A stretch of 64,000 bases of DNA from Dyadobacter flavalbus (lineage in GTDB: Bacteria; Bacteroidota; Bacteroidia; Cytophagales; Spirosomataceae): NCBI RefSeq assembly GCF_006149045.1, contig NZ_VBSN01000038.1, forward strand, positions 558,001 through 622,000, read 5' to 3'. Positions 20,457-55,776 of the stretch are shown piece by piece. A program made the position numbers and the translations under genes. Numbering within the stretch: position 1 is the first letter of the stretch; each line of letters begins with the position of its first letter. A model generated the notes under the pieces. It was given only the letters and a program-made list of their open reading frames with translations, made no database searches and was not told where the DNA came from.

Positions 20457-20467
20457 ATCCGTATCAA

Positions 20468-27609: not shown

Positions 27610-27664
27610 TGTGATTCTTAAAAGCCCGAATCAGCTTACCGTTTTATCCTAATCTTTATTTGCC

Positions 27665-29911: not shown

Positions 29912-29924
29912 AATTCTGAAAGCC

Positions 29925-31390: not shown

Positions 31391-32722
31391 TTACAGCATC
31401 TTGCCTTCTTTGGCCAGTTCCTTTCGTATACTTTCCGTAATCAAAGCGTGGCTTATGCTCGTTTGCTTCGCAGCCAGCGCTTTCAGACAAACCTGCTGGA
31501 CAATGTTGATGATATTGGAACCCGTCAGTTCGTACTGCGCCGCAATGTTTTTCAATGTAACCGATTTGTCCAGCGTAAGCTGCGATGGAAGCGCATTCTG
31601 CCAGATTTTCAGACGTTCGTCGCTATGCGGTTTCGGAAAGTAAATGACCGACTGGAACCTGCGTATGAAAGCTTCGTCCATATTGTCGCGGAAATTGGAT
31701 GCCAGAATGACAAGGCCCGGATACGTTTCCACCCTCTGCAGCAAGTACGAAACTTCCTGGTTGGCATATTTGTCATGCGCATCGCGAACACCCGTACGCT
31801 TGCCGAAAAGGGCATCGGCCTCGTCAAAAAACAGGATCCATTCGTGACTTTCCGCCGTTGTGAACAAGTTGGAAAGGTTCTTCTCCGTTTCTCCGATGAA
31901 TTTGGAAACAACTGTGGAAAGATCGATTTTGTACACATCCTTTCCGGTGTACTTTCCCAGCAACGTTGCCGCCAGCGTTTTGCCGGTTCCCGGCGATCCG
32001 TAGAACAATACCCTGTAACCCGGCTTGATCATGTGCTTCATATTCCAGTCTTTCAGCAGCGTGTTGCCGTGCAAAACCCAGTTCTGCAGATCGCCTAGCT
32101 GCTGCATCGTATGCTCGTTCAGCACAAGGTCTTTCCATTCCCTTTCGGTCTCAATCAGTCTGGCCGGAAAATGAATCCCGAATCTCGGCCTGGAAATTTT
32201 CCCGGTTGTCAGGCTGTCGGTATATTCAGGTGCCATGATGATTTTTCCGCTCATGGCCGGTTCTCCTGCCGGTGCATCTTCCAGCCATAAAATGCGTTTC
32301 CGGGCAAAGAAATGATCTTCTCCAAACAGTTGCTGTATGCCAAGACGCTTTTCAAGATGGTCTCCGGCCAGTATAAACAAAACCGTTTCACCTGTTGGTA
32401 TAAACCCTCTGAACTGCTTTCCGCGAACGCCGCCGATGAGGGAAAAATCCGTCGGCTGATCAAAAAAGGCATGGATGGCATTATCGAAAAAGTCGGGTTT
32501 CAGGTGCGGTACAAGTGCGATCAACAGACAAATGATCTCGTCGAAAGACAATTCCCTGTTCTCTAAAAACAAAGCAAAAGGTTCTTTAAGTCCTGAAAAA
32601 TCCGGAAAAGGAATTTTTTCAATGCTTTTAAAATCCGTCTTTTGTTTGAAATGAATTCCCAGCCGCGTAAGGATTACCGGCTTCAAATAATCATCCAGTA
32701 AAGTGGAAAGGTAATGCGTCAT
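31391..32722 (-). CDS. AAA+ ATPase of the eCIS (Afp15-like)
   Basis: 443 residues. The C-terminal AAA+ module has Walker A GSPGTGKT near 241-248, Walker B ILFFDEADALFGKR near 292-305, sensor 1 in ILASNFRDN and an arginine finger pair in AFIRRF. The first 200 residues are a family-specific domain that includes a segment of predicted beta strands (IPTGETVLFILAGD). Afp15/Pvc15 ATPases are needed to assemble or load eCIS particles, probably unfolding cargo into the tube. It is the last gene of the minus-strand eCIS operon, 22 bases after the DUF4157 gene. Confidence 0.92.
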   Translation of the reverse strand: MTHYLSTLLDDYLKPVILTRLGIHFKQKTDFKSIEKIPFPDFSGLKEPFALFLENRELSFDEIICLLIALVPHLKPDFFDNAIHAFFDQPTDFSLIGGVRGKQFRGFIPTGETVLFILAGDHLEKRLGIQQLFGEDHFFARKRILWLEDAPAGEPAMSGKIIMAPEYTDSLTTGKISRPRFGIHFPARLIETEREWKDLVLNEHTMQQLGDLQNWVLHGNTLLKDWNMKHMIKPGYRVLFYGSPGTGKTLAATLLGKYTGKDVYKIDLSTVVSKFIGETEKNLSNLFTTAESHEWILFFDEADALFGKRTGVRDAHDKYANQEVSYLLQRVETYPGLVILASNFRDNMDEAFIRRFQSVIYFPKPHSDERLKIWQNALPSQLTLDKSVTLKNIAAQYELTGSNIINIVQQVCLKALAAKQTSISHALITESIRKELAKEGKML

Positions 32723-32744
32723 CTGGATTCACTGTAATGGACAA

Positions 32745-36923: not shown

Positions 36924-36941
36924 ACTATTGCAGTTAAAACG

Positions 36942-41302: not shown

Positions 41303-41309
41303 ATGGGTG

Positions 41310-41960
41310 TCATCTTGAAGAAAACGTAAAACCCAAACCGCCAAATCCGATCAAAAGCAGCTTGTTATATGCTTCGGACTGATAAAAACTGCTCGGAAAA
41401 GGAATCGGTACTTTAATGTTGTAATCAAAAACGATGTCGACGGAAAGGCCGCGCCAGTTTTCCTGCGGTTTCGGATCAAACTTTACTTCAATCGCCTGCC
41501 TTCCCGTTTTTATTTCCAGATTTTCCGAAATGATTTTTTCATATCCGTTGAAGATTTCCATCCGGATGCCGATTTCAAGATGGATCGTTTTTCTGGTAGG
41601 CGGCGATTCGCTTTCCACCACTTCCAGCGGACCCATCGGCGGCAGCTGCAGATTCCATTCGATTCTGGAAAGCTGAAGACCAGCGCCCAGATTACAGGCG
41701 GGCAATGAATAATTGTAAACTCTCGTGATCTGGCCGTTCAGATTCTTGAAAACAGGCACCAGCATGGTGTCGCCGCCCTGCCTTCTGATGATCCTGGCCT
41801 CTTCGGAACTTACAAGCACATGATAGCCGGACACGAATGAAGTGTAAGTAACATCCTCGTTGTAAGAACTGTCTATAAGCTGGTGAAACTGCTCTTCATT
41901 GGGCCTTTTACCGCTTCTGAAATATTCTTTAAGAACTGTTTTGGTTACTTTGGCAGACAT
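41310..41960 (-). CDS. Uncharacterised protein within the eCIS baseplate cluster
   Basis: 216 residues, no signal peptide. The N-terminus (YFRSGKRPNEEQFHQLIDSS) resembles the start of several Bacteroidota tail-fibre-like proteins. The C-terminal two thirds is beta-rich (ENWRGLSVDIVFDYN). It is placed between the gp6/J-like gene (12-base gap) and the Afp12-like gene, so it is probably a structural component or fibre attachment protein of the particle. Function not established. Confidence 0.65.
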   Translation of the reverse strand: MSAKVTKTVLKEYFRSGKRPNEEQFHQLIDSSYNEDVTYTSFVSGYHVLVSSEEARIIRRQGGDTMLVPVFKNLNGQITRVYNYSLPACNLGAGLQLSRIEWNLQLPPMGPLEVVESESPPTRKTIHLEIGIRMEIFNGYEKIISENLEIKTGRQAIEVKFDPKPQENWRGLSVDIVFDYNIKVPIPFPSSFYQSEAYNKLLLIGFGGLGFTFSSR

Positions 41961-41972
41961 ATTGGCTAAGTT

Positions 41973-44291
41973 TTACTGCACTTCAAAATTGATATCGACC
42001 AGCATTTGCCCGATTCCCCTGTAATTCTGATAAGGCACTGTTTCTGCGGTTACAGACTTCAGATCATGCTGTCCGGAAGAAACCACAACCGATTTCTGAT
42101 CCAGGATAATTTCCTGCTCACGAACGGTCTCCCCGTTTTTTTCCCAGCTGATGCGATCTATGAAATTGATGTATTCCCTTGTTTCAATAAAGCTGATTAC
42201 GGAAGACAGATGAAGCTTGCTTCCGAGCTGGACTTCCATATCATCCCTGAATGCCCACGGGGAAAGAAAATCTTCCAGTTCTTTCTGCAGTTTATTGATG
42301 TAAAAACCTGCTTCCGTCTGATGCCTGAAACTGATCTGCGCCACAATTTTAATCTCGACAAACGCGGCATTGGTTACATCTGCCTGCACATGCGGGGATT
42401 TTACGGAATCTATAAACCTGCTGATGCTGTTCAGCAGATTCTGTCCTGCAACGGGCCTGAACAATCTGCGCCGTTCGGCATGCATGATCCTGGGAATGAA
42501 AATGATATGTACATGCCCGGGCTGCACACGGTCTGATCCGGAACGGCTGTGCCGGATGCATTTCACCTTGTATATTTCAGGAAAGTTTTCAAGAACGAGA
42601 TGTTCGAAATCCCATGCTGTAACCGCCTTGTTCTTGTGCCGGAGCATTTCACTGATCCGCATAAAACGGGCCTGATTTGTTTCAGCCGCCCGGCCTGAAA
42701 ACGACGGGTACGGCTGTTCTGTCTTTCTGATTTCCCGGATTGCCGGCAAAAAGGATTTAACCGAACCGGGCGGCAGCTTACTCAGATTATAAGTGACCGG
42801 CACGGCTTCCATTTCCCTTTTGGCCAAAATGGCGTTGGGCCTTATTTCCAGGATCCGGTCAAAATTGGCTGCGTTTTCCTCAACCGAAAATCGCAGCCAG
42901 TACTGTCCGGCAGGCATGGCCGGATTATGCATGGAAATGGTTTCCGGAAGCTGCAGCGTAATGATTCCTGTCTGCTGCAAACCCGTTGTAGTGTCGGACA
43001 AAATCTGGTTGGGTAAAAAATCCTTCCAGCTATCCTGTTCGGCAAAGGAAAAAGTGACGGTCCCTTTTTCAGCCGTACTTTCTTCCAGGACGGCAAAAAA
43101 CAGACTGATCTGAAGCGGAGGTTCCATGCCGGTAAGGCCAATGTACAAGTATCCCGAGTCCCGCACAGAATCCGTCAGCAAGGCCGGGAAACTTCCCTTC
43201 ATATCTATGCCCGGAGTCACCGGCCTGATTCCGAAGGGCTCGATATGATAAAACTGCATACCCGCTTTCTGGTCGCCGATATGCATGCATTCGGCTGCCG
43301 TATAAGAAAGCCGCACTGATTCCATCACAGGCGTGTAAGGCTCGTTGGGAATCTGCACATCTTTGCCCTGCGCCTGCTGAATGCTGGCTTTGGTAAGCAC
43401 CCTCGGAAAAAGCGCATGCCCGAATGCTTTGTCCGGCGAACTGATGGAAAGGCGAAGTAACCCGTCTTCATTCTCCCTGCCGGCCAGCGAACTTTGCTTG
43501 TTTTCAAAATAACCGGCTACATCCAGTTTCATAGGCTGCTGAAATACGGGAAACCCGGCTTCGTTTTCAGAGGCAGCAATGCTTTTCCATTCCTTGCAGC
43601 TGCGGATGGATGCGCTGACTTTAAAATCGTCATTGTTTTTTACCAGACTGTTGGTATCGCCGGTGTAGCCCTCGTAATAAATGGGAAAACCCTCTTCCGG
43701 AATCCCTTTCCATGCAATGTTGACCTGGAGCGAAAGAAGCGGCTTGTAAAAAATTTCTTCCAGACCAATATACAGACTGGAACCGACTACCGGGCTGAAC
43801 CCGAAAGCCTGGCTTGCCTTGCCGGCATCGAGCACGCCGTAATCGTTGCTCAGGAGAACCGAAGCGGCATTTTCACAGCTTACTTGAATATCAATCCTGC
43901 CAAATCTGACCGACCGGAGAAACTGATAAACTGATGCATCCGTTTTCCTGAGCCTTACACGCACGGCCGGCCATTCCCTTGCGTTTATTTCGTATCCGTG
44001 AACAGCCGGATCGAAGCCGGAAACAGCCGGCGCCGTTTCGTCCAGAACGGTGGCAAAAGAATATTTGTCACCGTCGAAAACCGGGGCGTCATTCAGTTTT
44101 GAGGAGAACCATTTACCGGCTGTTGTAAACTGCATTTCAAAAAGATCTGCAGTGAGCAGGCCGGAAGTATTGTCGGATTCCGAACTGATCTGCGAAAAGG
44201 TGATGCTGACTGTTCGTGTGCCTTCTTTCAGCAAAAGAACAGGCGAACTCAATGCCCAGCCGATTGTCGTATTTTCTCCGTCGTTTCCCAA
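41973..44291 (-). CDS. eCIS baseplate gp6/J-like protein, C-terminal part (split by an in-frame UGA)
   Basis: 772 residues if translation starts at the TTG at 44291. The C-terminal half has the baseplate-J pattern: NKAVTAWDFEHLVLENFP, then VKCIRHSRSG, GHVHIIFIPR and FLSPWAF. However, the frame is open for 55 more codons upstream (to 44456), with sequence that continues the family (FKTEKETVISLVKLTG). It is in the same frame as the preceding 155-residue ORF, separated only by the TGA at 44457-44459. A single protein of about 983 residues, the size of Bacteroidota Afp11-type baseplate proteins, is expected. The piece as listed is therefore probably a broken gene, a readthrough product, or a sequence error. 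Confidence 0.78.
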   Translation of the reverse strand: MGNDGENTTIGWALSSPVLLLKEGTRTVSITFSQISSESDNTSGLLTADLFEMQFTTAGKWFSSKLNDAPVFDGDKYSFATVLDETAPAVSGFDPAVHGYEINAREWPAVRVRLRKTDASVYQFLRSVRFGRIDIQVSCENAASVLLSNDYGVLDAGKASQAFGFSPVVGSSLYIGLEEIFYKPLLSLQVNIAWKGIPEEGFPIYYEGYTGDTNSLVKNNDDFKVSASIRSCKEWKSIAASENEAGFPVFQQPMKLDVAGYFENKQSSLAGRENEDGLLRLSISSPDKAFGHALFPRVLTKASIQQAQGKDVQIPNEPYTPVMESVRLSYTAAECMHIGDQKAGMQFYHIEPFGIRPVTPGIDMKGSFPALLTDSVRDSGYLYIGLTGMEPPLQISLFFAVLEESTAEKGTVTFSFAEQDSWKDFLPNQILSDTTTGLQQTGIITLQLPETISMHNPAMPAGQYWLRFSVEENAANFDRILEIRPNAILAKREMEAVPVTYNLSKLPPGSVKSFLPAIREIRKTEQPYPSFSGRAAETNQARFMRISEMLRHKNKAVTAWDFEHLVLENFPEIYKVKCIRHSRSGSDRVQPGHVHIIFIPRIMHAERRRLFRPVAGQNLLNSISRFIDSVKSPHVQADVTNAAFVEIKIVAQISFRHQTEAGFYINKLQKELEDFLSPWAFRDDMEVQLGSKLHLSSVISFIETREYINFIDRISWEKNGETVREQEIILDQKSVVVSSGQHDLKSVTAETVPYQNYRGIGQMLVDINFEVQ

Positions 44292-44456
44292 ACCAAACGG
44301 GTGCCAGCCCTGCCTGTCTTCGCTATGGCCAACACTGGATTCCGGAAATGATCGTATACTTTCTCCTGTTTTTTTCGGGTTGTAAACGGATTTGAAGCCG
44401 GTCAGTTTAACGAGCGAAATAACGGTTTCCTTTTCTGTTTTAAACAGGATATTGTT

Positions 44457-44459
44457 TCA
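44457..44459 (-). other. In-frame UGA stop splitting the eCIS baseplate gene
   Basis: The stop follows Asp-Glu-Asn at the end of the 155-residue ORF. After it, the same frame stays open for 827 codons. The context on the coding strand is AAT-TGA-AAC. Removing it joins a GP6-like N-terminus (IPADARILAGKDEN) to the rest (NNILFKTEKE), a point where homologous proteins run through without a break. Confidence 0.85.
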
Positions 44460-44924
44460 ATTTTCATCTTTTCCGGCCAAAATTCTTGCATCTGCAGGTA
44501 TAGGAAACTGCTGCACATTTCTGGCGAGTTCGGGAAAAATATAGATCCGGTCCGCCTGCGGCGAAATATCCTTTAAACCCAGTACATGGCGGTAAAAAAA
44601 GTCAAGATGGGCTGAAACAAGCGCGTTAAGGTCGTTCTGAACGTATTGGAACAAATTCAGAAAAGCAAGGAACAGTGCAAGATGTGGAGACACGTCGCCT
44701 TCCCGATAACTTCCCGATAGCACTTTCTCATCCAGTTCCCTGAAGAAAGGAGACCAGTTATCGCGCGCTGGGCCGGCTTCTTTCGGATAAAAAATGACAG
44801 CTTCGGCTAGCCTGCGCGTTTCGGCATAGATTTCGGATGTAGTCCTGGCATCCAACCTGAAATAGTCAGGCATCAAAGCGCTGGCATCCGCAACCCTGTC
44901 CTTTTGATTTGTGCCCTGACTCAT
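44457..44924 (-). CDS. eCIS baseplate gp6/J-like protein, N-terminal part
   Basis: 155 residues ending at the TGA at 44457. The sequence (PDYFRLDARTTSEIYAETR, HLALFLAFLNLFQYVQNDLN, HLDFFYRHVLGLK) is the usual N-terminal domain of long Bacteroidota eCIS baseplate proteins; the domain after it is encoded in the same frame beyond the stop. Its start overlaps the gp25 gene by 4 bases (44921-44924). As a stand-alone protein it lacks the J-like domain needed to form a wedge. Confidence 0.78.
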   Translation of the reverse strand: MSQGTNQKDRVADASALMPDYFRLDARTTSEIYAETRRLAEAVIFYPKEAGPARDNWSPFFRELDEKVLSGSYREGDVSPHLALFLAFLNLFQYVQNDLNALVSAHLDFFYRHVLGLKDISPQADRIYIFPELARNVQQFPIPADARILAGKDEN

Positions 44925-45352
44925 TGTCTGTCTGCATTTATACCCGCATTACTGGCTTCATGCATGTAAAACGGAAATACCATATTGGACCGGGAATTGG
45001 TTGCACTGATGATGTAAACAATGTCAAAAACCAGCGCACCGTCCAGGGCCGAACGGTCACTCACCTTTATTTCCTCCAGCACGATTCGGGGTTCGTGATA
45101 AAGGATTGCCGTTTCAATCGTATCCCGTAAATAGGTGATGGTGGTTGTATTTATTTTTTCAAAGACGAAGCTCTGAAGATTGCACCCGAACTGCGGCTGC
45201 ATGACGCGTTCGCCGGGCCGCGTGGAAAGCAGGATACGCAGCGACTGCCGGATATCTTCTTCACCCGCCGCCATGACTACCTCGCCGTCGTACAGTGAAA
45301 ATTCGGGCGGAAATGCCCAGCCATTACCCAGAAAGCCTGAATCGTCTGTCAT
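44921..45352 (-). CDS. gp25/GPW-family baseplate protein (Afp9-like)
   Basis: 143 residues of the GPW/gp25 family: GWAFPPEFSL at the start, EEDIRQSLRILLSTRPGERVMQPQFG in the core (the RPGER/FG motif is diagnostic) and TTITYLRDTIETAILYHEPRI. Together with the gp6-like protein it forms the sheath-initiating part of the baseplate. It overlaps the next gene by 4 bases. A 53-base gap precedes it. Confidence 0.92.
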   Translation of the reverse strand: MTDDSGFLGNGWAFPPEFSLYDGEVVMAAGEEDIRQSLRILLSTRPGERVMQPQFGCNLQSFVFEKINTTTITYLRDTIETAILYHEPRIVLEEIKVSDRSALDGALVFDIVYIISATNSRSNMVFPFYMHEASNAGINADRQ

Positions 45353-45405
45353 AATTTACCTTGTATCTCAGAACGGACTGTTATTCAAATAAGCTTTTTG
45401 AACAG

Positions 45406-47130
45406 TCAGTTAATCTGCACCAATGATCCTTTCAGTACGGCAATCGCTTTGGTTCTGATTTCAGCGCCGGCGTCGCCCTCCGCAACAAATTTGCCTTTTG
45501 CCTTGTTTGAAATGTTCACGCCTTCTATTTCGATTCCGGTTTTTGCACTGATCCTTAAATTGCCGGAACTTTCAATGGAAATGCCTTTTTCATTCATTTC
45601 TATCCGGTTTTTGTTCTTGTCGGTGATCGTGAGCTTTCCTGATTCCTCATTGATTTCAATGCTGTTTCCGGCGGGCGTTGAAATGGCGACAGATTTTTTT
45701 TCATCGTCCCAGATCATGCTCATGTTGCTTTTTGTAAAGTTGCCTTTCTGAACGTTTTTATCCGTTACTTTCAAAACCGGTGCGTTGGCGCTGCTGTACA
45801 TTGCGCCGATCACAATGGCTTTGCGCGGATCGTCGTTCAGAAATCCTACAATTACTTCATTCCCGATTTCGGGATAAAAGAAAAAACCGTACTGACTGCC
45901 TGCAGAAACATGGGCAACCCGCGCCCAGATCCCTTCCGTGTCATTTGCCGATGCAGACAGTTTTACCTTTATACGGAATTCACCGTCGGGATCGCCTTCC
46001 AGCGCCGTGACGGTTCCCGTATGCAGGCCTGAAATGGCAGGCAGCATCCCGCCGGCAGCAGCCGCACTGAATTCCTTCTGTTGTCCGTACTTCGTATCCG
46101 ACCAGCCAAACTGGATGTCGGAAGTCCAGTTGCCATCACTCAGTTCATGCCTGATACCGGTTACAAAAGCACGGCCGTTGAACCGATCGCCCAGACCGGC
46201 AAGCCGGATTATTTTACCCGGAAAAATAGAAGCATTCCCGCGGATGCGTACTGTTCCTGTCGCTTTGGAAAGCGCGCTTTTCGTTGCTTTGGCCTTTGTC
46301 CAGGCTTTGAGTTCTTCCAGCGGTGTTCCGTCACCGCCGGTCAATGCGTATGGGTCCGGGTTCAGCACTCCGGAAAGCTGTCCGGAACTCAGGTTTCCGA
46401 TTTCGTTTACAAATTCAGCAGTTTCTTCAGCCACAACGATTTCCTGCTCGGACGGCGACCACGACGTACTTTCAACGGCGGCAAACTGGGTTTCCGAATC
46501 AATCAGGCCGTCGAATGCAAGTACATTGATGCCATACTGACAAGTGAGCGCATCGGTGCCATCCATGGAAGGTTTTGAAATCGTGAGCTTTTCCTGATCA
46601 AACAGCATCATGCAGCCGCATGCTTCCACCCGCGACAGGATAAAATCCCAGGAAGTGCTGTCGTACTGGACCAGCTGCAAATGCCTGATTTCTTCCATTT
46701 CGTCAATAGTATATTTAATGTCCGCATCGTCCAGAATTTGTGAAACGGCATCTTTATCGCTTGCATCTCTGAAGTAACGGCTTTTCCGGACTGTTGTCAG
46801 CTTTACTACGGCATGTTTGCATTCAATTTCCAGCTGGGATTCACCCGATTCCCTGATTCGGATGGCATGCCTTACGGCTATTCCTTTGAAAACAGGATCG
46901 GCATTGCCTTCATAGCCGAGGTCAATTTCAATTTTTGCACCCGGTTCAAAATATTCCTTGCTGCTGAGTTCAAAATCCTGCCTGCTTACATTTCCGTCCA
47001 GCAGAATCAGTTTGGCACGCGGTACCCGGTTGGCTTCATTGAGCGTTATGATACTTTTTACCTTGTAGCTGGTGGCAAATTCCTCGCCGTTGATCCTGAT
47101 TTTATAACGCGTAACACTCTTCATCAGCAT
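45406..47130 (-). CDS. VgrG-like spike/baseplate hub protein (Afp8-like)
   Basis: 574 residues with the gp27-like hub domain (about 1-340), an OB-fold region (GTVTALEGDPDGEFRIKVKL, about 370-440, with the EIGNEVIVGFLNDDPRKAIVIG stretch) and a C-terminal gp5-like beta-helix (GNSIEINEESGKLTITDKNK), as in VgrG and Afp8. No extra effector domain follows, so it serves as the central spike that carries the PAAR tip. The start is ATG at 47130; an internal Met at residue 3 is possible. Confidence 0.9.
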   Translation of the reverse strand: MLMKSVTRYKIRINGEEFATSYKVKSIITLNEANRVPRAKLILLDGNVSRQDFELSSKEYFEPGAKIEIDLGYEGNADPVFKGIAVRHAIRIRESGESQLEIECKHAVVKLTTVRKSRYFRDASDKDAVSQILDDADIKYTIDEMEEIRHLQLVQYDSTSWDFILSRVEACGCMMLFDQEKLTISKPSMDGTDALTCQYGINVLAFDGLIDSETQFAAVESTSWSPSEQEIVVAEETAEFVNEIGNLSSGQLSGVLNPDPYALTGGDGTPLEELKAWTKAKATKSALSKATGTVRIRGNASIFPGKIIRLAGLGDRFNGRAFVTGIRHELSDGNWTSDIQFGWSDTKYGQQKEFSAAAAGGMLPAISGLHTGTVTALEGDPDGEFRIKVKLSASANDTEGIWARVAHVSAGSQYGFFFYPEIGNEVIVGFLNDDPRKAIVIGAMYSSANAPVLKVTDKNVQKGNFTKSNMSMIWDDEKKSVAISTPAGNSIEINEESGKLTITDKNKNRIEMNEKGISIESSGNLRISAKTGIEIEGVNISNKAKGKFVAEGDAGAEIRTKAIAVLKGSLVQIN

Positions 47131-47188
47131 ACTAATTATATGAACATCACCAAACCTTCGGGCAGGACTTATTCAGCCTTGTGTCGGC

Positions 47189-47845
47189 TCATTGGTTCAA
47201 AGGCGGAAAAACGATGCGCATGTTAGGCTTAAGGTTCCTGAAATTACTGATCCCGTTGAACTTTGCCACCTGAATATACAGCGCGGCGTTCCCGTAAATC
47301 CGGTAAGTCATCAGCGGCAGCGTGTCGCCTTCCTTTACATACCGGACATGCGTCAGGTCCGGGGAACTCGTCCGCATTTTCTTGGCGCGCAGTTCTTCTT
47401 CCACTACTTCCACAAACGTGGTGCTCAGGATCGCCCGCAATGCAGTTCCGTCCGGTTTGAAAAGCGTATAATCAATTTTAAGCTCTTTCAGTACGCAGTT
47501 GAACGACAGTTCGCCCCATAACAGTTTCAGGAATTTCGGGCGGTGAATTTCTCCGTCGAAGTTGTAAACCGCTTCCTTGAATCTGGCAACCTCGTCCCTG
47601 ACATTCTTTTTACCACTGATTACGCCGGTTCCGTCAAACAGGAATTCGAGCTGGATTTCTTCCGCAGGCGTTTTGTTGAAAGTCGGATTGCTGCCGTGTG
47701 TTCCCTGTTCCTGTTCTTCATTGTACCGGATGTTCAGCTTCCTGCTGAACCGGGCAGGATTTACCGGAACAGAAATGGAATCCACTTTGTCCTGAAAGAG
47801 GTCATCTTTGTAAACAATGATCTGAAGCTTGTTCGGGTCGGCCAT
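47189..47845 (-). CDS. LysM-domain eCIS protein (Afp7-like)
   Basis: 218 residues from the start at 47845 (MADPNKLQII); a start 51 bases upstream is possible but would overlap the preceding gene. The beta-rich N-terminal part contains SVPVNPARFSRKLNIRYN, and the C-terminus ends in a LysM-type segment (YVKEGDTLPLMTYRIYG, then NFRNLKPNMRIVFPP). Afp7-type proteins join the tube to the spike. Spacing is 2 bases from the DUF5908 gene and 58 bases to the VgrG-like gene. Confidence 0.88.
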   Translation of the reverse strand: MADPNKLQIIVYKDDLFQDKVDSISVPVNPARFSRKLNIRYNEEQEQGTHGSNPTFNKTPAEEIQLEFLFDGTGVISGKKNVRDEVARFKEAVYNFDGEIHRPKFLKLLWGELSFNCVLKELKIDYTLFKPDGTALRAILSTTFVEVVEEELRAKKMRTSSPDLTHVRYVKEGDTLPLMTYRIYGNAALYIQVAKFNGISNFRNLKPNMRIVFPPLNQ

Positions 47846-47847
47846 GC

Positions 47848-48030
47848 TTATCTTTCGCTCTGCATCCGCAAATATTCCATTACCTGTTCCATACACCGCG
47901 CCACGATCCGGTCTTCCTGCCTGGAATCCAAACCATTTTGCGCTGCCAGCTCAGGCGCATTGGTGTTTTTATTCCCCGTATGATTGTCCACCGTAGCCCT
48001 GATGATCAGTTCCCGTATTTCGATCGGCAT
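47848..48030 (-). CDS. DUF5908-family small protein (Afp6-like position)
   Basis: 60 residues starting MPIEIRELIIRATV, the pattern of DUF5908, a small family encoded between tube and LysM genes in eCIS loci. Start chosen at 48030, 1 base after the tube gene stop; a longer ORF to 48105 would overlap it. It ends in a short helix (MEQVMEYLRMQSER). Role unknown. Confidence 0.8.
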   Translation of the reverse strand: MPIEIRELIIRATVDNHTGNKNTNAPELAAQNGLDSRQEDRIVARCMEQVMEYLRMQSER

Positions 48031-48031
48031 T

Positions 48032-48478
48032 TCAGTGCTGTTTAAAGGTAAAATAATGATAATTGAGTTCGAGCGTTTCAATAAGCAGTCCGCTGCTTTC
48101 CGCATTCAGGCCGGAGCACGACCATTTTACAGGTATGGCATGCACCAGGTTCCAGGTGCAGAGCTTTTTATGTTCTTCATTCAGCAGGTTTACCGTGAGG
48201 TTTTTAGGCTCGAAATCCATTTCCTCCATGGCTTTTGTACACCAGCTTGTAATGCGGGAATCTTTAATAATGCCGCGTTTCAGCACCAGGTTATCGTAAG
48301 TGGTCCCTTTCGGGAGCTTATGCGCAAACCGGTTTTCGCCGCCTTCGGCATAATCTTCGGTAGCCACATTCTGCGACAGACCGCTTACTTCCTGAAAACT
48401 GGAATCCGTGCCGGCGGGCAGCCCTTCGAACTCAACTGAAAAATGAAATGCGACCGGCGGATAATATGCTTTTTCCAT
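48032..48478 (-). CDS. eCIS inner tube protein (Afp5-like)
   Basis: 148 residues of the gp19-type tail tube family: FHFSVEFEGLPAGTDSSFQEVSGL at the N-terminus and NLTVNLLNEEHKKLCTWNL in the second half are typical. It starts directly after the first tube gene (no gap) and is 1 base from the DUF5908 gene. In Afp the fifth protein caps the tube initiation, which is the likely role here; the first tube protein would form the bulk. Confidence 0.9.
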   Translation of the reverse strand: MEKAYYPPVAFHFSVEFEGLPAGTDSSFQEVSGLSQNVATEDYAEGGENRFAHKLPKGTTYDNLVLKRGIIKDSRITSWCTKAMEEMDFEPKNLTVNLLNEEHKKLCTWNLVHAIPVKWSCSGLNAESSGLLIETLELNYHYFTFKQH

Positions 48479-48907
48479 TTATTCAGCGGTAATTCCTTCA
48501 TGTACAACTTCCATGGTTTCAATGGCGACGCTGTTGTCATCCGATTTCAGCTCCGTTGCCTGCACTTTGGACGGCCAGGCATTCTTGATTTTCCACGAAA
48601 TAACAGGCTGATGTTCTTCATTGAGCAGACTGATCGTGATGTCCCTCCGCTTTACTGTTTCCAGCTTGTTTTCGGCCCACCATTTGTAAAATTCATTGTC
48701 GCCCTTGAACGATCCTCTTTTCAGCGTTATGTTGCTGTATTTGGCCAGTCCCGGCATTTTCAGTTTCGAGTATTCCTTGCTGGAACCTTCCCGGTATTCA
48801 ATGATTTCCCGTTCCATATCCAGACCGGTTACTTCTGTAAAAGCCATTTTTGCTCCGCCCCAATCTACCTGAAAGTGAAACTTGGGCAATGGATATTCGT
48901 TCGCCAT
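48479..48907 (-). CDS. eCIS inner tube protein (Afp1-like)
   Basis: 142 residues of the same tail tube family, with PLPKFHFQVDWGG at the start, SSKEYSKLKMPGLAKYSNITLKRG in the middle and ISLLNEEHQPVISWKIKNAWP near the end. It is the main tube subunit by order and length. Its gene ends exactly where the second tube gene begins. Confidence 0.92.
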   Translation of the reverse strand: MANEYPLPKFHFQVDWGGAKMAFTEVTGLDMEREIIEYREGSSKEYSKLKMPGLAKYSNITLKRGSFKGDNEFYKWWAENKLETVKRRDITISLLNEEHQPVISWKIKNAWPSKVQATELKSDDNSVAIETMEVVHEGITAE

Positions 48908-49072: not shown

Positions 49073-50461
49073 TCAGATTTCCTGCATTTTGTGCGTAAAG
49101 CGTAGGACCAGAAATTCGGTGGGCCGAACGACGGCAAGGCCGATTTCCACGTTCAGGATGCCGTTCAGGATGTCCTCGCTGCTCATGGTAACGCCCAGCC
49201 CTATCCGTACGTAAAATGCATCCCCGGCAGCAGCGCCGGCCAGTGCTCCCTGCCGCCACAGATTGGTCAGGAAATTTTCAATCATCGTACTGATCCGCAC
49301 CCACGTATTGGCATCGTTTGGTTCAAAAATAAATACCTGCGTAGCCTTTTTAATCGATTCCTCCACGAAATTATAGAACCGGCGGACGTTCACATATTTC
49401 CATTCATTGTCATTGCCGGCCAGCGTCCTCGCTCCCCAGACCAGAATACCAAGCCCTGTAAACGCCCGGATTGCATTAATGGACTTTCCGCCTTCTGCAT
49501 GCACGTTGAGCTCGGCCTGTTCTTCATGGGAAATCTTGCGCGTGAGACCGCTGACTGCATTCAGACTTACGTTTGCAGGCGCTTTCCAGACACCGCGGGT
49601 TGCATCCACATTGGCATAAACGCCCGCTATGGCGGCGCTTGGCGGCAAAACCAGCATTTCAGATTTAAGCCTGAGCAATATTTCCTGACGGCGGATACTG
49701 CCAGTTTCCATCTTTGCATTAACAGGCGGCTTCGGCTTTCTTTCCGGAGGCGGCGCGTCGCCCGGGGCCGGAGCGGGCGGAGGTGCAGCCGCAGCCGACG
49801 GCTCAACAAGCGAAATATCCTCATCATCCAGGGAAGCATACTTGGCAATGGAAGTTTGCAGATACGGATAATAGGCAGCACCGTATTTAAGATTGTTTAC
49901 ACCCAATCCGTTACGGAAGTTTTCAATTTCATCCTTTTTGGTTTCAGGAATGTCAATAATGACAAAACGGTCCATCAGCCTGGCGGCCTGCGCAAGTGCC
50001 TGCTGATAAAAATTCAGATAATCGGCATAAGGAAGCTGAACTGCTTCGGGCGCCAGGATCAGTGTAGGCTCATCTTCCTTTTCAATAACGGCCAGTGCAT
50101 CCTCAAAATCCTTTTTTTCAACTCCTTCCGGTTTTTTCGGGCCGAGTGAAGCGATGTAGCATTTTCCGCCGCCATTGGCAAAATACAACTGCAGATGATA
50201 ATACAGCTCATTCCTCGAAAAACTCTCTTCCCAGGTATTGTCCTGAACATTGAATTTAAGTTTCCAGTTGTCCCAGTTACAGAATTTCTGTTCAAATTCC
50301 ATCAGCGTCCGAATCTTGACTGCCGTTATCCGGGCATTATCCGGTCGTGTATCGGTATAACCTATAAAAACAGGCACGGCAGTGTCCACCGCTGCGATAG
50401 AAGGAGGAAACAACGGTACTTCCTCAATATATACCCCCGGAGTTTTTGTTACAATTGCCAT
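49073..50461 (-). CDS. eCIS tail sheath protein (single copy)
   Basis: 462 residues with the contractile sheath signature: TKTPGVYIEEVP at the start, and KSINAIRAFTGLGILVWGARTL and EPNDANTWVRISTMIENFLTNLW near the C-terminus. Only one sheath gene is present, whereas Afp/PVC loci carry three. A Pro/Ala-rich segment near residues 217-247 looks like an inserted flexible linker. It lies 156 bases after the DUF4255 gene and 165 bases before the first tube gene. Confidence 0.93.
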   Translation of the reverse strand: MAIVTKTPGVYIEEVPLFPPSIAAVDTAVPVFIGYTDTRPDNARITAVKIRTLMEFEQKFCNWDNWKLKFNVQDNTWEESFSRNELYYHLQLYFANGGGKCYIASLGPKKPEGVEKKDFEDALAVIEKEDEPTLILAPEAVQLPYADYLNFYQQALAQAARLMDRFVIIDIPETKKDEIENFRNGLGVNNLKYGAAYYPYLQTSIAKYASLDDEDISLVEPSAAAAPPPAPAPGDAPPPERKPKPPVNAKMETGSIRRQEILLRLKSEMLVLPPSAAIAGVYANVDATRGVWKAPANVSLNAVSGLTRKISHEEQAELNVHAEGGKSINAIRAFTGLGILVWGARTLAGNDNEWKYVNVRRFYNFVEESIKKATQVFIFEPNDANTWVRISTMIENFLTNLWRQGALAGAAAGDAFYVRIGLGVTMSSEDILNGILNVEIGLAVVRPTEFLVLRFTHKMQEI

Positions 50462-50617: not shown

Positions 50618-51289
50618 TCAATGGTTATCCGGACGGTAGTTCACGGTCTCCATGCTGTTGCTGTTTATTTGCGGCACACCCTCTTTGTTTCTTCCTTCAA
50701 ATTCACCGAAGGTACTGTTTGAAGACAGGATAACCGGCATGGGCGTACTTTCGTGGGTATCCACCAGTTCCAGCAACCGCATTTTGTACATGACGGATGG
50801 TATCTGCTTGCTGCCGAGGCTGCTCCACATGTCAAAGGCTTCCTGAAAACCGATGTCGTGCAGTTCCAGCGTTACCTTTTGTTCCGGTAGCTGTTCATTT
50901 TCATTAAATCCTGTCTGAAAATTTTTGTGCGCCTGAAAAAAAACGATTGTATCCGAAAGCAGCTGCAGCGATTCGGCGTAGTTCTTTTTGGTTACAGAAA
51001 CCAGCAGGTACAGATTGAGAAAAACAGGCGGGTTAAACTTTCTTACTTCCTTTTCTTTTTTCCGGTCCGTTATTCTGGAATAAAACGCGGTATTCTTCAG
51101 ACTGGCTTCTTCTTCGATCTTGATGAGCGTGATGATAATCCTGTTCTGGAGGTCATTTTTTTCTTCGCTGATGTTGGCAATATTGTTCAGCTGGACAATG
51201 TCGCCGGTGCCGTTGATCGTATCTCCCCATTTCCCGTAAATGGATTTGTTCAGCCTCTCCGCAATCGCTTTAAGTGCAGGATAAATCAT
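50618..51289 (-). CDS. DUF4255-family eCIS cap protein (Afp16-like)
   Basis: 223 residues. The N-terminus is the DUF4255/Pvc16 domain (IYPALKAIAERLNKSI; LQNRIIITLIKIEEE; VFLNLYLLVSVTKKNYAESL). It caps the sheath and tube at the distal end and controls particle length with the tape measure. It is the first gene of the minus-strand eCIS run. It is divergent from the TIR-like gene at 51411, with 121 bases between the starts, so a shared promoter region is likely. Confidence 0.88.
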   Translation of the reverse strand: MIYPALKAIAERLNKSIYGKWGDTINGTGDIVQLNNIANISEEKNDLQNRIIITLIKIEEEASLKNTAFYSRITDRKKEKEVRKFNPPVFLNLYLLVSVTKKNYAESLQLLSDTIVFFQAHKNFQTGFNENEQLPEQKVTLELHDIGFQEAFDMWSSLGSKQIPSVMYKMRLLELVDTHESTPMPVILSSNSTFGEFEGRNKEGVPQINSNSMETVNYRPDNH

Positions 51290-51410: not shown

Positions 51411-53234
51411 ATGCTCAATCTGCCTACTATCTATCTGGTACACGCATCAGATGCCCCACAACATTTGTCCAGGCTGAAGAAAATTTTACAGGAGCTGGCA
51501 AACAAGCGTTCAATCGGTGATTTCGTATCACTGGACAGTAATCAGTACTACGCACTTCCTGAAGATAAAATCAGTGAAAATGATATGGTCATTATTTTAC
51601 TCAGCAATGGATTTACTGCTACCGAAGGGCTGAAAGAAGCCGTGGAAAAACGGATGACGGATCTTGCAGCCAAAAACCGGTCCCTGAAACTGGTGGAAAT
51701 CATCATTGACAGCATACCGTTCGATAAAAACTTCATGATACTTCCGGAAGACCTGCAGCCGATCCGGGAACAGGCGGACATGGACAGCGTATGGACCAGA
51801 ATCAAAAGCAGACTCGAGCAAATATACACTACCGGTAAAAAACCGGTCAATTACAGGAAGTACCTTATTTATGCTGCCATTGCACTTGTAATCTTTTTGA
51901 TCATCCGGTGGCTTTTATCACCGCCTGATTACTTACCCGTGAATGACGACGCAGCCGTGGAAACTGAAACTACTACCGCCGAAACCAAACCATATGAAAA
52001 ACTGGGCGAGTACACTTACGGCGGCGCGGGTGTCGAAAGTATTACCTCCGCAGTGGCAACTGCGGACGGAGGCGCCATGCTGGCGGGCTCATCCAACTCC
52101 GATCCGACTAACGGAAAATATGATTTTAAAGTTGTAAAAATTACTGCCGACGGAACAAAGCAGTGGGAAAAGAATTTCGGCGGTACGCAGGACGAGTTCC
52201 TGACCACCATCGTTGCCGTTCCGGGCGGTTATCTGCTGGGCGGACTGAGTTACTCCGCAGCAGAAACCGGCAAAACTGCTGCACTGTATGGTGAATGCGA
52301 TTTCTGGCTTGTGAAAATCGACAGTAACGGCAATCAGCTCTGGGACAAAACATACGGCGGTACAACCACAGATATCATTGAGGATATTATTCCGGTGCAG
52401 GATGGTTTTCTGCTCGGCGGCTATTCAAATTCCCAACCCGGGCCGGACAAGGCAGCTCCCGCTAAAAGCAGTGATTACTGGATCGTCAGAACAGATGCAC
52501 AGGGCCAGCGATTGTGGGACAAAAGCTTTGGCGGCACGGACTACGACTTTCTTTTCAGCATGGCGTACGATAAAAACAACAGGCAGATCATGCTTTCCGG
52601 TTATTCCCTTTCAGCGAAGGATCAGGATGGCAAAACTTCACAGGATTATGGCCAGGAAGATTACTGGATTGTCAAAGTAAATGAAGAGGGCGATAAACTG
52701 GCCGAGTACAGCCTTGGCGGTTCGGCAGTGGATAAAGCGGTCACATCGGCATTTGACGGTGCGCTGCTGATCGGCGGCCATTCGGATTCCAACGGCGGAA
52801 CCGGCTCCAAAAGCATGGGCATGGCCAGAAATCTGGGTAAAAATGATTTTTACGTCGGCAAATATTCCAATGACGGAGACAAGTTATGGGATAAAACCTA
52901 CGGTGGGCCCGAGGAAGATAAATTGTTGTTCATTTCGCCGGTCAGAGGCGGATTGCTGCTTGGCGGACAGTCGGCATCGAATTCATCGCAGACTAAAAGC
53001 GCACCGAATTACGGCAAACTAGATGGATGGCTTGTAAAAGTGGATTCAACCGGAAACAAACGGATGGACCTTGCATTTGGCGGAAAAGAAGATGACACGA
53101 TCAATGTCATTATAAAGCTGAAAGACGGAAATTACCTTTTATGCGGCGATTCCAGTTCACCTGAGGATGCAACCAAACAAGCCGGAAGTTTTGGTGATGC
53201 AGACTTCTGGGTAGTTAAATTAAAGTTAAACTGA
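51411..53234 (+). CDS. Membrane protein: TIR-like cytosolic domain, one membrane span, extracytoplasmic beta-propeller-like repeats
   Basis: 607 residues. Residues 1-140 form an alpha/beta domain of TIR type (IYLVHASDA at the start; VIILLSNGF; EIIIDSIPFD; LPEDLQPIRE). A single membrane span lies at about 151-169, so the first domain is cytosolic. Residues 195-607 hold about seven repeats of the form W-(D/E)-K-x-(Y/F)-G-G ... GG(Y/F)LLGG ... D(F/Y)W-(L/I)-V-K, a propeller by appearance. It is divergent from the eCIS operon and next to a paralogue. I know of no described eCIS component with this design. TIR-like status is from pattern; no NADase residue is certain. Confidence 0.78.
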   Translation: MLNLPTIYLVHASDAPQHLSRLKKILQELANKRSIGDFVSLDSNQYYALPEDKISENDMVIILLSNGFTATEGLKEAVEKRMTDLAAKNRSLKLVEIIIDSIPFDKNFMILPEDLQPIREQADMDSVWTRIKSRLEQIYTTGKKPVNYRKYLIYAAIALVIFLIIRWLLSPPDYLPVNDDAAVETETTTAETKPYEKLGEYTYGGAGVESITSAVATADGGAMLAGSSNSDPTNGKYDFKVVKITADGTKQWEKNFGGTQDEFLTTIVAVPGGYLLGGLSYSAAETGKTAALYGECDFWLVKIDSNGNQLWDKTYGGTTTDIIEDIIPVQDGFLLGGYSNSQPGPDKAAPAKSSDYWIVRTDAQGQRLWDKSFGGTDYDFLFSMAYDKNNRQIMLSGYSLSAKDQDGKTSQDYGQEDYWIVKVNEEGDKLAEYSLGGSAVDKAVTSAFDGALLIGGHSDSNGGTGSKSMGMARNLGKNDFYVGKYSNDGDKLWDKTYGGPEEDKLLFISPVRGGLLLGGQSASNSSQTKSAPNYGKLDGWLVKVDSTGNKRMDLAFGGKEDDTINVIIKLKDGNYLLCGDSSSPEDATKQAGSFGDADFWVVKLKLN

Positions 53235-53429
53235 CCCGGCTATACGCAGCCGGCAGCTTTGCACATCGGACCGTGGATTGAACCGGTCTGATGCGCATGA
53301 CCGTATACTAAATATTTGGTATTTTGAACATATGACCCTATTTATCTGATTAAATTTAGGAAGCTGCACAGAACAGGATTCGTCAGAAATAGCAACGAGA
53401 TTATCTGAACATTTTAATTCATCCTTGAT

Positions 53430-54836
53430 ATGGCTAACCGTCCTAACGTTTATCTGATTCATGCCTCCGATGCTGTTCAACATGTGGATTACATAAAGGA
53501 AATACTGAACCGCCTGAAAACCGGAAACCGGATCAGCGGTTTTATCCCGGTGGAAGGTGCCGCAGCATGGACACTCCCTGAAAAAAACCTGCTGGCCGGC
53601 GATGCGGTTATCGTTTTACTGACCAATCAGATCATCCCGTTTAAAGATGAAGGTGAAAAGTACCTTAAAAGCCTGCATAACAAAGAGCTGAAAGTAATTG
53701 AAATCATTATCGACAGCATTCCTTACGATTCCGGATTTTACTTTTTTCCGGACGATGCACAGCCGATCCGGGAAAAGGGTAAAATGGACGAAGCCTGGAA
53801 CAAAATTGAAAAAGGGCTGGAACAGATGTTTCCGCCGGTAAATGCAAAAGAGAAGCAGTTTGTTTTTGGAAAATACCTTAAATACGCTGCCGCCGCTGTC
53901 GGTTTATTGTTGTTGATCTGGCTTGTTCCGAAGCTTTTCAATCAGGATGAAGTAAACTTTACTTTCAGGGTACAGGATGCATTGATGAAGCAGAAAAAAG
54001 ACACTACGTCGTGCTATCAGCCATGTCTTGCCAGCTTTTATGCGGAATCGGACCATCCTGAAAACCTGGTCTGGGATTTCGGCGATACTTTGCAAAAAGC
54101 TGTAATTACAGGCCAATATCCGGAATATCTGTTTACACAGGCCGGAACTTACACGATAAAACTGGCTACAGGGAAAGAAGACAATGCCGCAAGTATGGAA
54201 AAGAAACTGGTGGTCAAACCCGTACCGCAAGCTGACTTTGAAGTAGTGAACAATGGATGTGTGGCACCGTGCCAGCTTACATTCATCAACAGATCCAGTT
54301 ATGCCGATCAGTATTCCTGGGACTTGGGCAACGGCACAGCGACAACTGAAAAAGATGCGAAAAATATCCATTACGCGGCCAGCGGAAATTTTACTGTTCG
54401 CCTGACCGCTTCCAATAAGGACGGTATCAGGCTGGATACTTCCAAATCCGTAACAATCGCCGTTGACGAATCACCTTTTGCTCAATTTTCCGTGAGTTAT
54501 ACAGGTGATGTACAGCATCCATACAGAATGACTTTTAAAAATAATTCCAAATACAGCAATGAGTATACATGGTCATTCGGCGATGGCAGCACCATATTAA
54601 AAAAGAATAGTCAGGAACCCATTCCGCATGATTTCCCTGAACTGAAAACCTACAGGGTAACACTCGTAGCATCCAATAACCAATCGGCAATGGACAGCTT
54701 TTTCTATGACGTTTACCCGAAAAGTTACATCTTGCCTATCAGGGATCTCATGAAAACTGTAATTAGAACCAATCCGGCATACAGCGAGGAAATAAAAAAA
54801 TATTCCATTAAAGATGCAGCCCGATTTCCGAGGTAA
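53430..54836 (+). CDS. Membrane protein: TIR-like cytosolic domain, one membrane span, three PKD-like domains
   Basis: 468 residues. The first 140 residues align with the protein upstream (VYLIHASDAVQHV; AVIVLLTN; EIIIDSIPYD; DDAQPIRE). A span at about 150-168 is followed by three PKD-type beta-sandwiches (WDFGDT; SWDLGNG; TWSFGDGST). Cys pairs in CYQPC and CVAPC mark the first two PKD-like units and suggest disulfides, which fits an extracytoplasmic location. Spacing to the first gene is 195 bases. It is convergent with the PAAR gene, stops 24 bases apart. The two proteins probably form a pair. Confidence 0.82.
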   Translation: MANRPNVYLIHASDAVQHVDYIKEILNRLKTGNRISGFIPVEGAAAWTLPEKNLLAGDAVIVLLTNQIIPFKDEGEKYLKSLHNKELKVIEIIIDSIPYDSGFYFFPDDAQPIREKGKMDEAWNKIEKGLEQMFPPVNAKEKQFVFGKYLKYAAAAVGLLLLIWLVPKLFNQDEVNFTFRVQDALMKQKKDTTSCYQPCLASFYAESDHPENLVWDFGDTLQKAVITGQYPEYLFTQAGTYTIKLATGKEDNAASMEKKLVVKPVPQADFEVVNNGCVAPCQLTFINRSSYADQYSWDLGNGTATTEKDAKNIHYAASGNFTVRLTASNKDGIRLDTSKSVTIAVDESPFAQFSVSYTGDVQHPYRMTFKNNSKYSNEYTWSFGDGSTILKKNSQEPIPHDFPELKTYRVTLVASNNQSAMDSFFYDVYPKSYILPIRDLMKTVIRTNPAYSEEIKKYSIKDAARFPR

Positions 54837-54860: not shown

Positions 54861-55154
54861 TTACCCGATCAACACCGTCATACATCCCTGCAGGATTGTA
54901 CCGCCATGGGCCGTAGTGTCGCCCACCCGGGCGGCCGGCTTTCCTCCGATGAGTACCGTACCGGAACCCACGGCAATCATGTCGGGCGGCCCTGCGCAGG
55001 TACAAAGGCTGGTTACCGTTGCTGCCGGCATGCCACCGATCAGGACGGTTGAAACCCCGGGCGGCATCACTGGCCCACCGACGTGCGGAACCAATGCTGT
55101 TATCATCGGACAAACATGCATATCTCCTGCTCTTGCTGCTGGCAGTCCCATCAT
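54861..55154 (-). CDS. PAAR-domain spike tip protein (Afp10-like)
   Basis: About 97 residues from the start chosen at 55154; a start 30 bases earlier is possible. The body is a PAAR repeat protein (PAARAGDMHVCPM; VLIGGMPAATVTSLC; VLIGGKPAARVGDTTAHGG). PAAR proteins sharpen the VgrG tip and bind metal through His/Cys. In other eCIS loci PAAR (afp10) sits next to VgrG; here it lies beyond the two TIR-like genes, some 9 kb away. Confidence 0.85.
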   Translation of the reverse strand: MMGLPAARAGDMHVCPMITALVPHVGGPVMPPGVSTVLIGGMPAATVTSLCTCAGPPDMIAVGSGTVLIGGKPAARVGDTTAHGGTILQGCMTVLIG

Positions 55155-55776
55155 TGCCGGTTGAATGGTTTGAAAACAAGTCACGATTGCAGGCTCTGAT
55201 CAGACGGGAAAGTCAAATAATGCCTTTTATAAATGTAAAAATAAATTTTTGTGCATTTTTAATAAGATCAGATCATTTCCGGTAAATATGGCCGGATCCA
55301 TCATACGTAAAATAAAATCTACAAATTAATTATAGATACTTATGCACTTTTGTCGTATTTTTCTGTTATTAAAATACAGCCGAACATTGGAGCTGTTCTT
55401 TTTACCAGTTCTGTCTGTAAAAGTTTGTTCCTGAACCGGCCGGTTATCATACGATTTTCAGCATAATATAATAACATTCATCACAACTGTAAAATGGCGA
55501 TTTTTCTGATCCGCGATGTCAACATTCTGAGAACTTTTTACGTAACTACTTATAAATGTTTGCATTTTGTTGAGAATTTAAATCGCTTTTTTTGAAACCG
55601 ACAATTATTTTATGTATATTTTGAATAAAGGCGCGTTTTTTGTTGTTATCCAACATACTACGCATTAATCAGACATCAAGTATTGCAAAAAGCCATCAAA
55701 CAAAGCCCCTGATTCCGGAAGCCTTGTTTTTTAAATCACACTACAATCATTTCTATATTGCTCGTAATAATATCAT
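55155..55776. other. Intergenic region upstream of the fibre-like gene
   Basis: About 620 AT-rich bases without a supported gene on either strand. The left part should hold the promoter of the PAAR gene. The right part carries a candidate -33/-7 promoter (55592-55623) for the 748-residue protein. Confidence 0.5.
55592..55623 (+). promoter_or_regulatory. Candidate Bacteroidota promoter for the fibre-like gene
   Basis: TTG at 55592-55594 (in TTTTTTTGAAA) lies about 20 bases upstream of TATATTTTG at 55615-55623, one base longer than the Bacteroidota -7 consensus TAnnTTTG. The start codon is about 150 bases further down, so a long leader would follow. Confidence 0.35.

Follow-up and report, generated by a model that had tools for sequence, protein, structure and literature searches.

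Two predicted membrane proteins beside an eCIS operon

The window analyzed is a stretch of 64,000 nucleotides from Dyadobacter flavalbus. Genes for the sheath, tube, cap, hub, gp25, tape measure, eCIS_core, and AAA proteins of an eCIS were found together in it by Pfam, and two further genes, P1 and P2, lie between the cap/sheath-side end of this operon and its PAAR gene. A sequence-only reading of the same DNA had proposed this pair, its placement, and its divergence from the cap gene. All three were confirmed: both open reading frames were recovered at exactly the proposed positions, and an N-terminal domain (N-domain) and one membrane span are common to the two proteins. The features are as follows.

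31391..47896, minus strand: rest of the eCIS operon, with CIS_tube, VgrG-like hub, gp25, baseplate-type, tape measure, eCIS_core, and AAA ATPase genes (Pfam; the baseplate-type call is a match to NCBIfam TIGR02243 under the cut-off)
48032..48907, minus strand: two gp19-type tube proteins (Pfam)
49073..50461, minus strand: eCIS sheath (Pfam)
50618..51289, minus strand: eCIS cap protein, Pvc16_N family (Pfam E 4.7e-28), 121 bp from P1 and divergent from it
51411..53234, plus strand: P1, 607 aa, with a TIR-like domain (aa 1-140), a membrane span (aa ~152-170), and a seven-repeat beta-propeller (aa 203-607)
51411..51830, plus strand: P1 TIR-like N-domain, with the motif HASDAPQH and A77 in the column aligning with the TIR catalytic Glu
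51864..51920, plus strand: P1 membrane span, predicted N-in (hydropathy and charge rule)
52017..53231, plus strand: P1 ectodomain, expected to be a seven-bladed beta-propeller (seven repeats; CylK propeller match, E 1.7e-23)
53430..54836, plus strand: P2, 468 aa, with a TIR-like domain (aa 1-137), a membrane span (aa ~152-170), three PKD domains, and a C-terminal tail
53430..53840, plus strand: P2 TIR-like N-domain, with the motif HASDAVQH and E74 in the TIR catalytic-Glu column
53883..53939, plus strand: P2 membrane span, predicted N-in (hydropathy and charge rule)
53982..54704, plus strand: P2 ectodomain, three PKD domains (three Pfam stretches, outer borders set by eye), with C-x3-C pairs at residues 195 and 277
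54705..54833, plus strand: P2 C-terminal tail, partly like that of one Chryseolinea homologue (PIRD...NPA)
54861..55184, minus strand: PAAR tip protein (Pfam E 4.6e-25), after P2

The N-domains of P1 and P2 are 43-44% identical. Each protein has one hydrophobic stretch, with residues 152-170 as the best 19-residue window, and none near the N-terminus. According to the positive-inside rule, the charge flanking a membrane span predicts its orientation. The 15 residues before the span hold four K/R in both proteins and zero (P1) or one (P2) D/E, whereas the 15 residues after it hold zero or one K/R and four or three D/E, respectively. Since K/R precede the span and D/E follow it, the N-termini of both proteins are predicted to be cytosolic.

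The two ectodomains are of different types. From residue 203, P1 carries seven [YFL]GG...D repeats at a spacing of 53-62 aa, the repeat type of the C-terminal propeller of CylK and of the SBBP propeller of LipL53. The NCBIfam LipL53-type model was matched at E 1.3e-16 but with 60 of 400 bits, far under the family cut-off, and Pfam DUF5122 only at E 0.013. In P1, unlike CylK and LipL53, the propeller is preceded by a TIR-like domain and a membrane span. In P2, the PKD stretches matched Pfam PKD_4 (E 1.7e-23), with residues 263-343 as the best stretch. P2, and not P1, thereby recalls the published description of TssP, a protein of the Bacteroidota T6SSiii membrane complex (TssNQOPR) with one transmembrane segment and PKD-like periplasmic domains (PMC10781749), since it too has one span followed by PKD-like domains and is associated with a contractile machine. 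As described, however, the transmembrane segment of TssP is N-terminal and comes without a cytosolic TIR-like domain, whereas about 150 residues precede the span in P1 and P2 and the machine here is an eCIS.

Elsewhere in the window, a fibre-like gene was found at 55777-58023, and a CHAT-TPR gene and a subtilase gene lie about 9.5-14 kb beyond the eCIS AAA gene, with a type I secretion set between the CHAT gene and the eCIS. PADLOC gave no match. Scans for promoter-like sites (15, compared with 10.7, sd 3.5, in shuffles) and terminator-like sites (5, compared with 6.1 in shuffles) gave nothing clear.

Relation of the N-domain to TIR domains

Next, the N-domain was compared with known domains. 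An hhalign comparison with 30 TIR_2 domains (PF13676) scored 28.5 (E 2.7e-4), with a probability of only 42%; the best of 200 column shuffles scored 19.85, the reversed profile 13.4, and a response-regulator control 14.65. The distant similarity to TIR_2 and SEFIR covers 82-96 columns in order, and the aligned part begins at residue 22, after the HASDAxQH motif that stands at the first strand of the N-domain and sets it apart from those families. None of the N-domain members scanned matched a Pfam TIR family above the cut-off, SEFIR was matched only at E 0.07-0.09, and a search of the N-domain profile against solved structures returned no believable match (best E 0.11). The TIR-like assignment made in the sequence-only reading thus survives as collinear profile similarity above that of the shuffles, although not as a Pfam TIR model match, and a distant kinship with TIR domains is probable.

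The column of the TIR catalytic Glu was variable. It holds four E, one D, and two A in the seven N-domains, compared with E in 28 of the 30 TIR_2 domains; P2 has E there, P1 has A, and one Chryseolinea copy has D. The conserved Glu expected of a TIR NADase was therefore not found, with the qualification that a nearby column holds E in five of the seven and the alignment may be shifted. Because the column is not conserved, NADase activity of these domains is doubtful. What the sequence-only reading had made of the locus stands in part: the pair, its probable TIR kinship, and its association with an eCIS remain, whereas an NADase or death-effector role is at most possible, given this column, and its proposals of anchoring, contact sensing, or coupling to firing are inferences.

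Distribution of the N-domain among eCIS loci

Full-length P2 matched 149 of 222 family genomes, mostly unrelated PKD proteins found through the PKD part, and thus homologues were sought with the N-domain only. The N-domain was found in five genomes: two Dyadobacter, a Chryseolinea MAG (three copies), a Bacteroidales MAG, and one genome with a truncated remnant (G878). All seven full N-domains sit in proteins with at least one hydrophobic span. In 5/5 of these genomes eCIS genes lie within 4 kb, so the domain is not one found mostly without an eCIS, a possibility that the sequence-only reading had raised against itself. Weak matches in three other genomes of the phylum sample (G394, G425, and G441) proved to be ordinary TIR domains of other proteins and were left out of the count. 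The G394 match is about 445 kb from the tape-measure gene, in G425 the match and that gene are on different contigs, and the 75 genomes with a tape-measure gene do not include G441.

In Dyadobacter sediminis (G075), the P1 counterpart is 92% identical and in the same place, and the P2 counterpart is 82% identical. With dN/dS values of 0.09 (P1) and 0.24 (P2) against these orthologues, both genes are under purifying selection. The Chryseolinea MAG encodes a P2-like homologue over nearly the full length (34% identity over P2 residues 1-457 of 468, E 2.7e-88). Orthology of this PKD protein to P2 was not borne out by the N-domain tree, in which Dyadobacter P1 groups with P2 and two Chryseolinea copies group together, with good support for one of the four inner branches; it is counted as a homologue only. 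Since copies group within lineages, the simpler reading of this tree is lineage-wise duplication and not an old pair with fixed roles. Both Dyadobacter genomes retain two copies and the Chryseolinea MAG has three, as would fit a multi-subunit membrane assembly.

In both the cap tree (100/99) and the sheath tree (100/100), a single eCIS clade holds four of the five loci, whose hosts are labelled Dyadobacter, Chryseolinea, and Bacteroidales; the eCIS adjoining the G878 remnant falls outside it. The N-domain was absent from 74 regions (40 cap-side and 34 tape-measure-side) of 40 other eCIS loci, and in the phylum sample it was present in 1 of the 75 eCIS genomes, defined as those with a tape-measure gene. 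Viral contigs held no homologue, nor did plasmids searched with the P2 N-domain. The genes adjoin the cap gene in Dyadobacter and G878 and lie beyond the AAA gene in the Chryseolinea and Bacteroidales MAGs, which rules out a fixed position within the eCIS locus.

Possible roles of the pair

Since four of the five loci fall in one clade and the 74 regions elsewhere lack the domain, the pair looks like a membrane module belonging to that clade. As its role we tentatively favor an inner-membrane tether or envelope sensor for the particle, the likeliest of those considered. P1 and P2 would be bitopic inner-membrane proteins whose cytosolic TIR-like domains, most likely protein-protein modules and in P1 probably non-enzymatic, would recruit to the cytoplasmic membrane either the cytosolic particle or its cap, baseplate, or AAA ATPase. 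The periplasmic propeller of P1 and the PKD stalk of P2 would read or hold the envelope, and the two proteins, acting jointly, might position the particle or trigger its release or firing upon an envelope signal. The pair may thus link a phage-tail-like injection machine to the membrane of the producing cell or to a signal there.

A membrane protein coded with a CIS has been described in Streptomyces coelicolor, where CisA (SCO4242), a single-pass, N-in protein, is required for function and firing; its N-terminus is largely unstructured and its C-domain resembles periplasmic substrate-binding domains (PMC12237407). P1 and P2 are likewise coded with a CIS and, by hydropathy and charge prediction, single-pass and N-in. 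Going by that description, they differ in combining a TIR-like domain with a propeller or PKD domains, with no C-domain like a substrate-binding protein, and they would be comparable to CisA by function and not by shown homology.

Several observations count against a tether: the Dyadobacter genes are divergent from the eCIS operon, the end of the eCIS locus at which the genes lie varies between genomes, most eCIS examined are without N-domain genes, the G878 remnant adjoins an eCIS outside the clade, and the N-domain tree points to lineage-wise duplication. The fibre-like gene suggests that the particle may act extracellularly through ordinary fibre binding, in which case no inner-membrane tether would be needed.

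A second explanation, which we consider unlikely, is a TIR-type signaling or death module: stress would be sensed by the domains in the envelope, the TIR-like domains would produce or control a nucleotide signal or bring in caspase-like proteases, and lysis of the cell would free the particles. In the Chryseolinea MAG, two Peptidase_C14 caspase genes (E 1.2e-18 and 2.6e-21) separate the TIR-like array from the eCIS AAA gene, but such adjacency was seen at one locus only. The CHAT-TPR and subtilase genes of the window also favor this explanation and both recur in D. sediminis, although the type I secretion set separates the CHAT gene from the eCIS, and subtilase-like genes were also seen close to two other eCIS loci, as was a metallo-beta-lactamase-like gene close to one. 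In favor of the explanation, phmmer searches with the caspase and CHAT domains had no match at E 1e-3 among the 1025 ORFs of the 74 regions of other eCIS loci; by the same result, caspases as a general eCIS neighbor were rejected. The Glu of P2 at the catalytic column would suit an enzyme, whereas the A of P1 and the D of one Chryseolinea copy would not. A TIR/caspase death output is at most possible. The combined scheme is quite improbable: a distinct eCIS clade of Bacteroidota held at the membrane by bitopic proteins of TIR fold and coupled to caspase-like proteases, so that an envelope signal would lead both to firing or release of the particle and to death of the producing cell. If true, it would be the Gram-negative equivalent of the cytoplasmic CIS linked to cell death in Streptomyces, triggered through an immune-type signaling domain.

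It is also unlikely that the pair is a plain envelope sensor that regulates eCIS expression without contacting the particle. The predicted bitopic topology, the sensor- or adhesive-type ectodomains, and the divergence of the Dyadobacter genes from the operon would agree with such a regulator, but Pfam detected no known regulator output domain and, to our knowledge, TIR-like domains are not usual transcriptional outputs.

Loading of P1 and P2 into the particle as cargo, as TIR effectors with membrane and binding domains, is very unlikely. The precedent is EAT15 of Aquimarina atlantica, an eCIS-associated TIR toxin with an essential Glu (E83), described in a paper whose main text does not contain the word "transmembrane" (PMC11297309). 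By this description, the likeness is a TIR-type domain coded with an eCIS; P1 and P2 differ from the toxin in their membrane span and variable Glu column, and a central span, large ectodomains, and such a column are ill-suited to a tube-loaded enzyme toxin. Least probable, and disfavored, is that these are unrelated surface genes adjoining an eCIS by chance: PKD proteins are common in these genomes, as the matches to full-length P2 illustrate, but the N-domain is rare, was found only near eCIS genes, and falls mostly in one eCIS clade in distant hosts.

Two adjacent proteins with a shared N-terminal domain

Two neighboring genes of the window encode proteins with a TIR-like N-terminal domain (N-domain) ahead of a membrane span:

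51411-53234 (+): P1, 607 aa
53430-54836 (+): P2, 468 aa

The P1 and P2 N-domains are 43-44% identical. Hydropathy analysis found one hydrophobic stretch per protein (best window, residues 152-170) and no hydrophobic N-terminus in either. With 4 K/R on the N-side of the span and 3-4 D/E on its C-side, hydropathy and charge together give the predicted membrane topology. Beyond the span, P1 carries seven GG-type repeats, spaced 53-62 residues apart and matching the CylK propeller. P2 carries three PKD stretches and a short tail, with one C-x3-C pair at residue 195 and another at 277. Both proteins are under constraint, P2 more loosely, since dN/dS between the two Dyadobacter species was 0.09 for P1 and 0.24 for P2, with sheath and cap at 0.07 and 0.18, respectively.

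Probable kinship of the N-domain to TIR

The sequence-only reading had called the cytosolic domain TIR-like, and this was upheld in part. No TIR model in Pfam matched the N-domain, and no TIR_2 match was found in D. flavalbus at E 1e-8. A first profile, built from four N-domains, was searched against 395 phylum genomes (E up to 0.001); its three matches outside D. flavalbus (E 3e-6 to 2.2e-5) were rejected as homologues, being ordinary TIR domains. When six usable N-domains were compared by profile with 30 TIR_2 domains taken from genomes of Cytophagales, the probability was 57% (E 1.1e-4, residues 5-112); it fell to 42% (E 2.7e-4, residues 22-112) once a seventh, more diverged N-domain was added. 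Although this probability is only moderate, the seven-sequence score was 28.5, against 19.85 for the highest-scoring of 200 column shuffles, 13.4 for the profile in reverse and 14.65 for a response-regulator control, suggesting kinship to TIR above chance.

In the seven-sequence alignment with TIR_2, the catalytic-Glu column holds E74 in P2, A77 in P1 and E, D and E in three Chryseolinea copies; it is E in 28/30 TIR_2 domains. Across nine aligned rows, D14, A15 and Q17 of the HASDAxQH motif are invariant, H11 and H18 deviate only in a remnant from genome G878, and A12 deviates only in the third Chryseolinea copy.

Occurrence near eCIS genes

A genome-contig scan, in which 315 stretches with a pattern match were examined, found three loci with the N-domain, in Dyadobacter sediminis and in one MAG each of Chryseolinea and Bacteroidales. 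Among overlapping genome samples, matches were seen in 3/390 of the order (D. flavalbus, D. sediminis and G878), 4/395 of the phylum (D. flavalbus and the three ordinary TIRs) and 1/227 of the class (D. flavalbus). The neighborhood of such a domain and an eCIS, raised from the window sequence, recurred elsewhere: every N-domain homologue found lies close to eCIS genes (five loci). Homologues were few, and truncation affects two of these five loci. The Bacteroidales homologue, cut by a contig end, follows an AAA gene adjoining the cap. The G878 remnant has 41 residues (L048 16255-16377) and directly adjoins a DUF6909 gene; the cap 0.75 kb away belongs to a different eCIS lineage.

Tape-measure genes were found in 75/395 phylum genomes and 34/222 family genomes. 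An N-domain search of the 75 (E up to 10) gave some match in 25, near an eCIS in D. flavalbus only. Of the other listed matches, the one closest to a tape-measure gene (genome G343, E 0.83) was still ~51 kb away, and the rest were farther off or on another contig, which in draft genomes is a weak exclusion of proximity. Regions were also fetched from 40 other eCIS loci, 40 cap-side (caps recognized in 34) and 34 tape-measure-side; the cap-side set comprised 32 family loci (every one apart from those of the window and D. sediminis) plus 8 from the phylum sample. No N-domain was found at E 10 among 1025 non-overlapping ORFs of at least 90 aa in these 74 regions.

Cap (38) and sheath (43) trees both included all five TIR-like loci; of the 40 others, 7 were left out of the cap tree (absent or short cap) and 2 out of the sheath tree (no sheath match). 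The window, D. sediminis, Chryseolinea and Bacteroidales loci formed one clade (100/99, cap; 100/100, sheath), separate from sampled eCIS of other genus and family members. Over 460-461 columns, the window sheath shares 63% identity with those of the Chryseolinea and Bacteroidales loci; sheaths of other loci aligned either at 37-48% over longer spans or at 50-69% over some 190-220 columns. From these clades and identities, this eCIS type and the module seem to accompany each other across orders, in three lineages. The G878 locus fell outside the clade in both trees, and its remnant is either a second gain or a relic.

The Chryseolinea array

The Chryseolinea MAG has three tandem copies starting 3.6 kb past the AAA gene, with two caspase-domain genes in between (L041 5204-8718). 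The first copy, with five hydrophobic spans, matches nothing in Pfam at E 0.01. The second is split between two contig ends that overlap exactly for 141 bases; joined, it is 34% identical to P2 across residues 1-457 of 468 (E 2.7e-88). The third, 570 aa long and also with three PKD stretches, matches P2 residues 1-422 (E 7.9e-61). In an N-domain tree in which a single inner branch out of four had good support, Dyadobacter P1 grouped with P2 (94/94) and both Chryseolinea PKD proteins grouped together (92/89). The PKD form thus recurs, but the tree lends no support to one-to-one descent of the P1/P2 pair. Past the array (L151 1280-7388) lie genes for a metallo-beta-lactamase-fold protein, a subtilase, and a protein with PG-binding and zinc-peptidase-like domains.

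Possible role

Proteins of the P1/P2 kind resemble components of a complex that would serve the particle from the membrane side: they are membrane proteins, present at two to three per locus, with a common cytosolic module and differing outer parts, in one eCIS clade. The best analogues, likened by description rather than sequence, are CisA, which the cytosolic CIS of Streptomyces needs in order to function and fire (PMC12237407), and TssP, a TM-plus-PKD component of the Bacteroidota T6SS membrane complex (PMC10781749). PMC12998442 reports Roseiflexus without close cisA homologues. A signaling role for the TIR-like pair is kept as a rival to the membrane-side complex; the caspase genes at the Chryseolinea locus speak for it, as do the CHAT and subtilase genes in the vicinity of the locus in each Dyadobacter, but such adjacency is thin evidence. 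Nothing similar to the Chryseolinea caspases was found by phmmer (E 1e-3) in the 74 regions of other eCIS loci.

In open-access main texts, the only report found of an eCIS with a TIR domain was that of the toxin EAT15. Among the matches listed, CIS with PKD gave phage papers only, and no title for CIS with caspase named an eCIS-coded caspase. The sole listed matches for TIR with PKD and for CIS with Dyadobacter concerned cnidarians and Pvc15, respectively; CIS, caspase and TIR together gave nothing in the open literature. TIR, PKD, caspase and propeller were all absent as words from the main text of the eCIS survey PMC8213781.

Other genes of the window

A CHAT-TPR gene and a subtilase gene (17625-21895, -) lie some 9.5-14 kb away from the AAA gene of the eCIS. 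Directly adjoining the eCIS operon is a type I secretion set (26419-31355) of HlyD, a C39-peptidase ABC transporter and an outer-membrane efflux protein. Both groups of genes are also present in D. sediminis. Just beyond the PAAR gene, 55777-58023 encodes phage/GTA spike-fiber domains and a C-terminal polysaccharide-lyase-like domain, and its product may be the particle's fiber.
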